The notes beneath the pieces were generated by a model, which saw only the letters and a list, made by a program, of their open reading frames with translations, was not told where the DNA came from and made no database searches. Both the position numbers and the translations under genes were made by a program. DNA of 64,000 bases from Thermococcus sibiricus MM 739 (GTDB taxonomy: Archaea > Methanobacteriota_B > Thermococci > Thermococcales > Thermococcaceae). Positions 14,178 to 62,622 of the stretch are shown here, one piece after another (within the stretch, counting starts at the first letter, position 1; the number at the start of each line of letters is the position of its first letter). Location of the stretch: assembly GCF_000022545.1 (NCBI RefSeq), contig NC_012883.1:62001-126000 (forward strand). Reading direction: 5' to 3'.

Positions 14178-14294
14178 ATGCTGAGAAAACTTTTCAATGA
14201 ATGGAAAGCAAAATGCCCATTTGTTAGAGCGATAGAAAAGTGGCGATTTGAAAGGAAGAAAAACAAATTTGAATTTAAGAGAAAGCTCAGTTAG
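14178..14294 (+). CDS. Small basic 38-residue protein (tentative)
   Basis: A 38-codon frame, MLRKLFNEWKAKCPFV onward, has GTGGTGG just upstream and a TATA-like stretch near 14140. The product is rich in Lys, Arg and aromatic residues and predicted helical. I do not recognise it. Its last bases overlap, on the opposite strand, the D box of the guide RNA described at 14282-14341, so part of the frame may be chance. Without homologues it stays uncertain. Confidence 0.35.
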   Translation: MLRKLFNEWKAKCPFVRAIEKWRFERKKNKFEFKRKLS

Positions 14295-14341
14295 TCGATC
14301 CTTTCATCACATTTCAGCGATGGGTTTGTTCATCATAGCAG
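14282..14341 (-). ncRNA. C/D-box guide RNA overlapping the end of hisS
   Basis: On the minus strand all four boxes appear in order: C ATGATGA (14336-14330), a 12-base guide ACAAACCCATCG, D' CTGA, spacer AAT, C' GTGATGA, a 13-base guide AAGGATCGACTAA and D CTGA (14290-14287). The D guide pairs over 12 bases (11 Watson-Crick, one G-U) with TTAGTCGGTCCT at 54802-54813 in the 23S gene. By the N+5 rule it would direct 2'-O-methylation of U54806. The C box overlaps the hisS stop codon, so the RNA may be cut from the hisS mRNA. I found no convincing target for the D' guide. Confidence 0.75.
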
Positions 14342-15637
14342 CTTTTTCACTTCCTCAACTATACTCTCTATAGCAACTTGTTTTTGTTCTCCGCTTTTCA
14401 TATCCCTTATGGTGACCTTCCCTTCTGATAGATCTCTTCTTCCGAGAATTATTGCAACTTTCACCTCTATGCTGTTAGCATAATCAAGTGCTTTTCCTAG
14501 CTTTCTCCCTTGAATATCGTATTCTGCCTTGATATTTGCCTTTCTTAGTGTTTGGGTTACTTCTATGGCTTTCTTCTTTATTTCAAGTTCATTTCCTATG
14601 TAGGCAACAAACACATCGCTACCGACTTTAAATTCTGGCAGTAACTCTTTGCTTTCTAATATGGGGATTAGTCTCTCTATTCCGATTGCAAAGCCAGTAG
14701 CCGGAGTTGGCTTTCCTCCAAAGACTTCGATTAAGTTGTCGTACCTTCCTCCACCACCGATTGAGCCTATTCCAAGATCATTATCTGCAATTGCTTCAAA
14801 AACTATGCTTGTATAGTAATCAAATCCTCTTGCTATTCCAAAGTCTATTAGAGCGTAATCTTTAATGCCATAGGCCTTCAACAGCTCAAAAAGCTCCTCA
14901 ATCTTTTTCAATTCTTCCTTTGCAATCTCGCTCGTGAAAAGTTCTCGAGCCTTGGGTAAGACATCATCGGGCTTCCCTTTCAGTTCTATAAGAGTGAATA
15001 CCTTGTTTATATCTTCTTCATTTAATCCAAACTCTTGAAGAGCCTTTACGAATTCTCCTCTCTCCATTTTGTCTTTTTTGTCAATTAACCTCATAAGGCC
15101 AATGTCGTCTTTCACTCCAATCATTTTGGCAAACTCATCCAGCAGAATTCTATCTCCCACATTCACGGTGAATTCTTTTAACCCGGTACTTAGGTAGCTT
15201 TCAATGAGAAGCGCAATGACTTCCGCATCAGCTTCTATATTTGAAGAACCTATTAACTCTACGCCAGCCTGCCAGAATTCTCTAAGGCGGCCGCTTTGAG
15301 GTTCTTCATATCGGAACATATTGGTTATGTAGTACCATTTTATTGGCTTGGGGGCTGTTTGAAATGCATTTACAAAAAGTCTTGCAACACTTGAGGTTAA
15401 ATCAGGCCTCAGAGATAGGTTTCTGCCACCTTTGTCCTCAAAAGCATAGAGTTGTTCAACTACCTCTTCTCCACTCCTCAGTTCAAAGAGTTTTGTGTAT
15501 TCAAATGTTGGCGTGAGTATTTCCTTGAATCCGTAGACCTCAAAAACTTCTCTTATTCTCTCAAATACGTATCTCCTCTTTATCATGTCTTCAGGGAGTA
15601 AATCTCTGGTTCCTTTAACTCTCTGAATTCTAACCAC
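14333..15637 (-). CDS. hisS: Histidyl-tRNA synthetase
   Basis: A class II aminoacyl-tRNA synthetase of about 434 residues that charges tRNA-His. VKGTRDLLPEDM opens the protein; motif 2 contains MFRYEEPQSGRLREFWQAGVE; the histidine-specific motif YYTSIVFEA and the motif 3 region TGFAIGIERL are present, followed by the anticodon-binding domain (FVAYIG...EYDIQGRKLGKAL). I chose the GTG at 15637 because AGGTGG lies at the right distance. Another GTG three codons upstream would overlap that site. The stop overlaps the C box of a guide RNA. Confidence 0.93.
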   Translation of the reverse strand: MVRIQRVKGTRDLLPEDMIKRRYVFERIREVFEVYGFKEILTPTFEYTKLFELRSGEEVVEQLYAFEDKGGRNLSLRPDLTSSVARLFVNAFQTAPKPIKWYYITNMFRYEEPQSGRLREFWQAGVELIGSSNIEADAEVIALLIESYLSTGLKEFTVNVGDRILLDEFAKMIGVKDDIGLMRLIDKKDKMERGEFVKALQEFGLNEEDINKVFTLIELKGKPDDVLPKARELFTSEIAKEELKKIEELFELLKAYGIKDYALIDFGIARGFDYYTSIVFEAIADNDLGIGSIGGGGRYDNLIEVFGGKPTPATGFAIGIERLIPILESKELLPEFKVGSDVFVAYIGNELEIKKKAIEVTQTLRKANIKAEYDIQGRKLGKALDYANSIEVKVAIILGRRDLSEGKVTIRDMKSGEQKQVAIESIVEEVKKLL

Positions 15638-15670
15638 TTCTCCCACCTATAAATGGGAATAAAAAGGAAG

Positions 15671-21054: not shown

Positions 21055-21113
21055 TCATCAGCGAAGCGAAGACTCCTCATTGCATTGCTCGGGCGCCCTC
21101 GGTGTCATCATCC
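21055..21113 (-). ncRNA. C/D-box guide RNA
   Basis: On the minus strand: C box ATGATGA (21111-21105), guide CACCGAGGGCGC, D'-like CCGA, C'-like TGAGGA, guide GTCTTCGCTTCG, and D box CTGA (21061-21058). The D guide is complementary over 11 bases to GAAGCGAAGAC at 55491-55501 in the 23S gene, pointing by the N+5 rule at G55494. A TATA-like GATTATAAAAAG lies about 20 bases upstream. D' and C' are degenerate, as is common. The further upstream GC-rich block (21131-21165) partly resembles this RNA's 3' half, and I cannot assign it. Confidence 0.7.
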
Positions 21114-21170
21114 CTTTAAGCTTTTTATAATCATCGGGCGGGAAGTCCTCTTCCGAGAGGGAGGGATAGT

Positions 21171-51229: not shown

Positions 51230-51596
51230 TTTTTAATTTATACTTGTTAATTTTTGGAGATTTGATTTCCATTTTTGTGTCTTTTTTGGTAAAAGTCTCG
51301 CATTTCAAGACTTTGCAAAAATTTTTCATTGTGGGGATATCAACCTATAGGGTGGAGCGCCCGAATAAGGGTGCCCACAACCCAGGCATAAAACGGCGGC
51401 GTCGAGGGGAGTTGGTGCAAAGCACCCAACAATGAACCCCGCCCTCCAGCCTTGGGTACAGCAAAGTGCACTCCCAAGGAAACCCGAAAGGGGACCCCTT
51501 GGGGGTAAGGCAGGTCCAACATCCCGACCAAACCCCGAATGGGTTTTATGGTACTTCCCCTTGAGGGAAGTCCCACCGGCCGTACTCCTAATAGCA
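51230..51596 (+). promoter_or_regulatory. rRNA operon promoter and leader
   Basis: No gene is present. The A/T-rich part (51230-51345) contains a candidate TATA-like GCAAAAATTTTT near 51315-51326; start site uncertain. From about 51350 the sequence becomes GC-rich and carries the 5' arm of the 16S processing stem (51509-51546). The open frames here are chance reading of structured leader. Confidence 0.55.
51509..51546 (+). other. 5' arm of 16S pre-rRNA processing stem
   Basis: This arm pairs with 53091-53128 downstream of 16S. Two long paired blocks (GGCAGGTCCAACA and CCCCGAATGGGTTT on this arm) flank a mismatched middle, the shape of a bulge-helix-bulge site cut by the EndA endonuclease. 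Confidence 0.8.
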
Positions 51597-53316: not shown

Positions 53317-56381
<3,065 letters not shown>

Positions 56382-61284: not shown

Positions 61285-62622
61285 TCAAAAGACACCTCCG
61301 AGATAGGCAAAGTAACCAATGAAGATCAGAGCGAGTACATACATAAGCGGGTGTATATCTTTTCCTCTTCCACTGAGGAGCTTTATTATTGTGTAGCTTA
61401 TGAAACCCATCCCTATTCCATCTGCTATTGAATATGTATAGGGAATTGTCATGAGCACTAGAAATGCAGGTATTGCCTCACTTGCATCGTCAAAGTCCAC
61501 ACCTCTTATTGCACTAAGCATATAGTACCCCACTATAACTAGGGCAGGGGCTGTTGCAAATGCCGGAATTGCTTGAGCCAAGGGGGCTATGAACAACCCT
61601 ACTGCTAGGAATAAGAGACCTGTAACGAGAGCTGTCATTCCAGTTCTCCCGCCTTCTTCTATACCAGCTGCGCTTTCTATATAGGTGGTAACTGTCGAAG
61701 TACCAAGCAACGCTCCAAAACTTGTACCTATTGCATCAGTTAAAAGAACTTTCTCTGCATCAGGAACCTTGCCTTCTTTTGTTAAAAATCCGGCCTTTGC
61801 GCTCAATCCAGTGACTGTTCCAAGGGTGTCAAAGAAGTCTACCATGAAGAATGCAAAGACTACTCCAATGGCTCCTACATTGAGAAGGCCCTTAAGATCG
61901 AGTTTCAAGAATGTGTAGCTTATATTAGGTGTCGAAAAGATTTGGCTTGGCCATGGAGCAGCTCCAGTTATCCACCCCAAAATGCTCGTGACTAAGATTG
62001 ATATCAATAAAGCACCTTTTATTCTAAGACTTATGAGGATCGCAGCTAGGAATAGTCCGAATAGGAACAAAAGTCCTTGTTTAGTGACGAGTGCAGATGC
62101 ATTAAGCCCTGTTAACTGAAGTACCCCTGCCTCATTTACAACTGCTGTTAGGAAACCGACATCGTTGAGACCTATGAATGTTAAGAAAAGGCCTATTCCA
62201 GCTCCAACTGCATATTTTTGGCTTAGAGGGATCGCATGGATTATTGCGCTTCTTATTTTGGTCACGGAGAGTATTATGAATAGTATTCCCTCAACAAATA
62301 CTGCTGCTAAGGCAACTCTCCAGTCATAACCCATCCCAATAACAACATTATAGGCAAAATAGGCGTTAAGACCCATTCCTGGAGCAAGTGCAAAAGGTTT
62401 TTTGGCGTATAATCCCATTATTATGGTGGAAATTCCTGAGGCTAGTGCAGTAACTGCTACAAGGGAGCTGAAAGCATCTTTACCCATTGCATCACTTAAT
62501 ATGGCTGGATTCACAAAGAGAATATATGCCATTGTCATGAAGGTTGTAACTCCAGCAAGCACTTCAGTTCTTATATCTGTTCTGTGCTTTTCAAACTCAA
62601 AATACCTCTCGAACCATGACAT
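61285..62622 (-). CDS. NCS2-family nucleobase permease (adenine/guanine/hypoxanthine type)
   Basis: About 445 residues with twelve or more helices. EVLAGVTTFMTMAYILFVNP, ALAPGMGLNAYFAYNVV and FFDTLGTVTGLS are the signature of the PbuG/PbuO (AzgA-like) purine branch of NCS2. ATG 62622 follows GGTGAGCGAG; the longer frame to 62697 would cover the promoter. The promoter carries an 18-base sequence identical to one in the purM promoter, supporting a purine substrate. Confidence 0.88.
   Translation of the reverse strand: MSWFERYFEFEKHRTDIRTEVLAGVTTFMTMAYILFVNPAILSDAMGKDAFSSLVAVTALASGISTIIMGLYAKKPFALAPGMGLNAYFAYNVVIGMGYDWRVALAAVFVEGILFIILSVTKIRSAIIHAIPLSQKYAVGAGIGLFLTFIGLNDVGFLTAVVNEAGVLQLTGLNASALVTKQGLLFLFGLFLAAILISLRIKGALLISILVTSILGWITGAAPWPSQIFSTPNISYTFLKLDLKGLLNVGAIGVVFAFFMVDFFDTLGTVTGLSAKAGFLTKEGKVPDAEKVLLTDAIGTSFGALLGTSTVTTYIESAAGIEEGGRTGMTALVTGLLFLAVGLFIAPLAQAIPAFATAPALVIVGYYMLSAIRGVDFDDASEAIPAFLVLMTIPYTYSIADGIGMGFISYTIIKLLSGRGKDIHPLMYVLALIFIGYFAYLGGVF

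Follow-up and report, generated by a model that had tools for sequence, protein, structure and literature searches.

The closest described counterparts of the RNA analyzed here are the C/D box small RNAs (sRNAs) of the Thermococcales, represented in Rfam by RF00095 (snoPyro_CD), RF01144 (sR17), and other sR families, with which it shares the same boxes, the same spacing, a length of ~55 nucleotides, terminal pairing, and rRNA targets placed by the N+5 rule. PMC7994747, citing Tripp et al. (2017), puts at ~25% the share of archaeal C/D genes that overlap a 3′ end, and in almost half of these the C box carries the stop codon; overlap between a stop codon and a C box is a documented and frequent arrangement in archaea. 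In the 3′-overlapping genes described there, the stop codon of the upstream ORF falls within the sRNA; at our locus it falls within the C box, an arrangement the same in kind, with hisS as the host. Also related are the double-guide C/D sRNAs whose two targets lie within 100 nucleotides of each other (Dennis et al., 2015; PMC4644070).

We analyzed a window of 64,000 nucleotides from Thermococcus sibiricus MM 739, corresponding to positions 62001–126000 of its single-contig genome of 1,845,800 bp, and all positions given below are those of the window. At the end of hisS lies an RNA that its sequence identifies, with a probability of about 0.9, as a real and ordinary archaeal C/D box guide RNA, a conserved member of this well-known class. 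The features of the locus and its targets are as follows.

14287–14336, minus strand: core of the C/D box sRNA, defined by its boxes, its match to Rfam snoPyro_CD, and orthologs in 57 of 81 genomes of the family
14330–14336, minus strand: C box ATGATGA, which holds the hisS stop codon TGA and a second in-frame TGA
14318–14329, minus strand: D′ guide ACAAACCCATCG, putative ancestral target 23S 54848–54858, with pairing degraded in T. sibiricus
14314–14317, minus strand: D′ box CTGA, read from the sequence
14304–14310, minus strand: C′ box GTGATGA, read from the sequence
14291–14303, minus strand: D guide AAGGATCGACTAA, which pairs with 23S 54802–54813
14287–14290, minus strand: D box CTGA, read from the sequence
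14333–15646, minus strand: hisS, histidine–tRNA ligase, 437 codons plus stop (TIGR00442, 420 bits; PF13393), the probable host transcript
14178–14294, plus strand: convergent 38-codon ORF, its last codons overlapping, in antisense, the D box and the sRNA 3′ end
54802–54813, plus strand: 23S target of the D guide, TTAGTCGGTCCTA, with a predicted 2′-O-methyl at U54806
54848–54858, plus strand: 23S target of the D′ guide in relatives, AACGGGTTTAT, with N+5 at G54851, approximately E. coli A1386

Direct reading of the minus strand from 14336 to 14287 gave a canonical C/D core of 50 nucleotides from C box to D box, as the preliminary description had proposed, flanked and ordered as CTGCT ATGATGA ACAAACCCATCG CTGA AAT GTGATGA AAGGATCGACTAA CTGA GCTTT. 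All four boxes match the consensus exactly (RUGAUGA for C and C′, CUGA for D′ and D), the guides are 12 (D′) and 13 (D) nucleotides long, and the D′–C′ spacer AAT is 3 nucleotides long, which together with the length of the core places the RNA within the limits of archaeal C/D sRNAs (guides of ~10–13 nucleotides, total of ~50–65 nucleotides). The mature RNA probably extends over ~55–62 nucleotides, roughly 14282–14341, and a weak terminal stem of 5–6 bp is predicted for it (z −1.9).

In a search against Rfam, RF00095 matched positions 14284–14340 with the boxes aligned (37.6 bits, E = 1.1e-6), and sR17, sR9, and sR14 also matched, with E-values of 3e-4 to 1.5e-5. The RF00095 score falls short of that family's gathering cutoff of 45 bits, such that Rfam applied at the gathering threshold misses the sRNA, and no individual sR family covers its pair of guides, RF00095 being the best match. 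Among ten loci scanned with Rfam, only one ortholog reached the cutoff, with 45.0 bits, equal to the cutoff itself; it belongs to G029, which we take to be P. horikoshii. The exact C–D′–C′ pattern occurred three times in the genome, once at this sRNA, compared to zero times for the reversed control.

Of 61 genomes, 22 gave a BLAST match to the locus, T. sibiricus among them. In an alignment of 18 orthologs the box cores do not vary, and neither do AAACC (D′ guide) or GGA and ACTA (D guide); the sequence model derived from these 18 copies found full-length or near full-length orthologs in 57 of 81 Thermococcaceae genomes. The search of related genomes that the preliminary description had proposed as a check found conserved boxes and guides, with worn boxes or guides in some relatives. 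We refer to genera by the labels g1 to g6, in which g1 is the genus of T. sibiricus, and we take g2 to be Pyrococcus and g3 Thermococcus, with genome G018 presumably P. abyssi and G036 presumably T. kodakarensis. Gaspin and colleagues reportedly described 46 Pyrococcus sRNAs in 2000, and the P. abyssi and P. horikoshii orthologs may be among these. A table of T. kodakarensis circular RNAs, which covers circular RNAs only, lists no circle at the position of the G036 ortholog. The locus adds to the Thermococcaceae a conserved C/D sRNA outside any specific Rfam sR family, with two testable 23S methylation sites. Weaker relatives were seen at three loci (L121, L124, and L126), where a D′ guide like (C)AAACCCGTCG is combined with another D guide, GGGGACCTC, upstream of an apparent gene start; these are possibly a second sRNA family sharing a guide.

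The D guide pairs with 23S positions 54802–54813, the span originally reported, although one of the 12 pairs is G-U, leaving 11 Watson-Crick pairs. None of 1500 shuffled D guides equaled the observed pairing with rRNA. The N+5 rule points to U54806, which is paired and corresponds approximately to U1343 of E. coli 23S rRNA. The target TTAGTCGGTCCTA was identical in every relative that we read, and the three main variants of the guide, GGATCGAC, GGACCGAC, and GGACTGAC, all pair with it by exchanging Watson-Crick for G-U pairs. Conservation of the boxes, guides, and target thus lends good support to the proposal that the RNA is a methylation guide aimed at U54806, and a single base of the large rRNA is the probable site of the methyl group that the sRNA guides. 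Some relatives have mismatched guides (two mismatches in G036, one C-A in G009, and mismatches also in G078 and G070), and therefore methylation at the predicted site is, to judge from these guides, not strictly maintained across the family. We considered compensatory change between the guide and 23S rRNA in the G036-like genomes with the GGATGGACCAG guide and dropped it, as the target is unchanged in these genomes, which points to degraded guides and not to covariation. For P. furiosus, a RiboMeth-seq dataset has reportedly been deposited as GSE153501 (PMC7758197).

The D′ guide, to which no target had previously been assigned, typically pairs in Pyrococcus, Thermococcus (g3), and g6 with AACGGGTTTA(T) at 23S 54848–54858. 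This pairing spans 10–11 bases, 10 of them contiguous Watson-Crick pairs, in most relatives outside g1, and the targets of the D and D′ guides are 45 nucleotides apart, like those of the double-guide sRNAs with neighboring targets (Dennis et al., 2015). Because the D′ guide pairs with 23S rRNA in most relatives, comparison of the genomes indicates that the sRNA is ancestrally a local double guide. T. sibiricus differs from the described double guides in that its D′ guide has lost contiguous pairing: a T-to-C change in g1 shortens the pairing at 54848–54858 to 8 bp, and in T. sibiricus a further G-to-A change lies beside the N+5 base, with the best contiguous run being 8 bp, at 55265–55272. With these two changes, the D′ guide of T. 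sibiricus is probably weak or orphan, and partly decayed. A different stretch of 23S, 56278–56287 (GACGGGTTTG in g1), forms 10 Watson-Crick pairs with the D′ guide of the genus, better than the ancestral site. We dropped it as a candidate for the ancestral target because the sequence at this position differs in Pyrococcus and in the g3 genomes that we checked; the g1 guide may be drifting to it as a new target. Searching whole genomes for D′ targets (YRAYGGGTTT) was uninformative, with matches that did not exceed the reversed control in most genomes.

Turning to the placement of the gene, the hisS stop codon TGA (14335–14333) lies inside the C box, confirming an overlap described previously, and a second TGA follows directly in frame; the T just before ATGATGA is part of CTA, the final hisS codon. 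The C box supplies the hisS stop in all 16 genomes in which the sRNA is linked to hisS (10 of g1 and 6 of g6). In another 41 genomes the ortholog is found away from hisS: 9 copies lie over or next to the 3′ end of an OsmC-like gene, and the other 32 count as free-standing, almost all of which are close to the gene for the glutaminase subunit guaA and converge with it. In most of the Pyrococcus genomes examined, hisS is directly followed by a different C/D RNA, whose guides are GCGCCATCGATG and CCGGATTCCTGG (L157–L164); likely orthologs of that RNA occur at other loci in other genera, including g1 (L173–L178). No C/D RNA followed hisS in the g3 hisS tails that we read or in those of g4 and g5. 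Because 41 genomes have the sRNA elsewhere and Pyrococcus hisS is followed by a different C/D RNA, guide and host gene are, on this comparison, interchangeable: the same guide moves between contexts (free-standing, osmC-like stop, and hisS stop), and the sister genus has a different guide at its hisS tail. The locus illustrates neatly how flexible archaeal guide-RNA genes are already known to be and opens no new mechanism. The presence of the 23S target within the same window, pointed out in the preliminary description, is real but reflects synteny at the level of the genus, the distance being ~37–46 kb in other g1 genomes and ~670 kb in G021 of g6, which also has the sRNA at hisS.

From the boxes, guides, pairing, conservation, and genomic contexts we infer the following course of transcription, processing, protein binding, and methylation. 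In the two genera in which the gene spans the hisS stop with no evident promoter of its own, the sRNA would most likely be trimmed from the hisS transcript, with bound proteins protecting it. The C/D and C′/D′ kink-turns would serve as assembly sites for L7Ae, Nop5, and fibrillarin, and with the D guide paired to 23S 54802–54813, fibrillarin would 2′-O-methylate U54806, the N+5 base. The D′ guide would originally have paired with 54848–54858, 45 nucleotides downstream, this second guide having partly decayed in T. sibiricus.

Two alternatives concern whether the RNA is a guide at all. The boxes might be nothing but coding and stop-codon sequence and the complementarity to rRNA an accident, as single short boxes are common and TGATGA overlaps a stop codon; against this stand the empty reversed control, an Rfam E-value of about 1e-6, and the failure of every shuffled guide to equal the observed pairing, and, because the same boxes and guides are conserved in orthologs at unrelated, non-hisS loci, we regard chance as already refuted, its remaining probability being negligible. 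The RNA might instead serve mainly as a kink-turn element in the 3′ end of hisS mRNA, acting through L7Ae binding on mRNA stability or termination. It does sit in the transcript, and L7Ae is reported to bind kink-turns in archaeal mRNAs (PMC5539422), but conservation is as strong in the guides as in the boxes, and orthologs are kept at loci other than hisS, which makes this role a very remote prospect.

The remaining alternatives accept a guide RNA and differ on its relation to hisS. The sRNA is likely released from hisS mRNA, because each of the 16 linked genomes has the hisS stop within the C box, and none of their copies shows the T/A-rich promoter-like element (TTTAAA- or TTAAAA-like, 25–34 nucleotides before the C box) that precedes many free-standing copies. 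That same element, together with a weak TATA-like CTATAG/GTATAG in the end of T. sibiricus hisS, could be taken to mean that transcription of the sRNA is independent of hisS and starts from a promoter of its own within the 3′ end of that gene. No shared promoter element was seen upstream of the hisS-linked copies, however; their A/T-rich stretches are unlike a shared TATA element and vary by species as hisS codons would, and promoter-like motifs accompany only ~20% of archaeal C/D genes in the survey of PMC7994747, so we consider an independent promoter unlikely. Scans for bacterial-type promoters and terminators, which are not applicable to archaea, returned nothing at the locus. Processing from the hisS mRNA, the favored reading, had also been suggested previously, together with the idea of a regulatory link in which the amount of guide RNA tracks hisS mRNA and so couples synthetase expression to ribosome modification. 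The release stands as likely alongside the well-supported guide function, but the regulatory link does not: although the hisS stop is overlapped in every g1 and g6 genome with a match and a C/D RNA directly follows hisS in most of the Pyrococcus genomes examined, the ortholog lies beside guaA or over an osmC-like stop in the 41 unlinked relatives, the guides of the Pyrococcus RNA are unrelated and its likely orthologs lie elsewhere in other genera, and the g3 tails that we read have no such RNA, leaving such coupling highly improbable. Nor do we give much credence to the hisS 3′ end being a recurrent landing site for C/D guides, where co-transcription with the synthetase is no accident but was favored by selection, for its effect on expression level or for coupling to growth rate. 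Two different guides at the hisS tails of sister groups are the one slightly unusual feature and stay a curiosity, because they amount to a single coincidence with no statistics.

The convergent 38-codon ORF described as antisense to the sRNA is present at 14178–14294 and is conserved as a protein. It encodes a small basic protein (MLRKLFNEWKAKCPFVRAIEKWRFERKKNKFEFKRKLS) with matches in 65 of 81 Thermococcaceae genomes from six genera (E-values down to 1e-17 within the genus) and no Pfam or NCBIfam family. The ORF is convergent with and near hisS in many genomes, with its stop codon, in the window, facing the D guide.

Two other guide RNAs were observed in the window. Positions 21056–21115 of the minus strand match the Rfam C/D box sRNA sR45 (RF01274) with 50.8 bits, above the gathering score, and positions 51357–51460 of the plus strand, just upstream of the 16S rRNA, match the H/ACA guide RNA Pab19 (RF02794). 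A comparable guide RNA has been reported ahead of the T. kodakarensis rRNA operon (PMC4247193).
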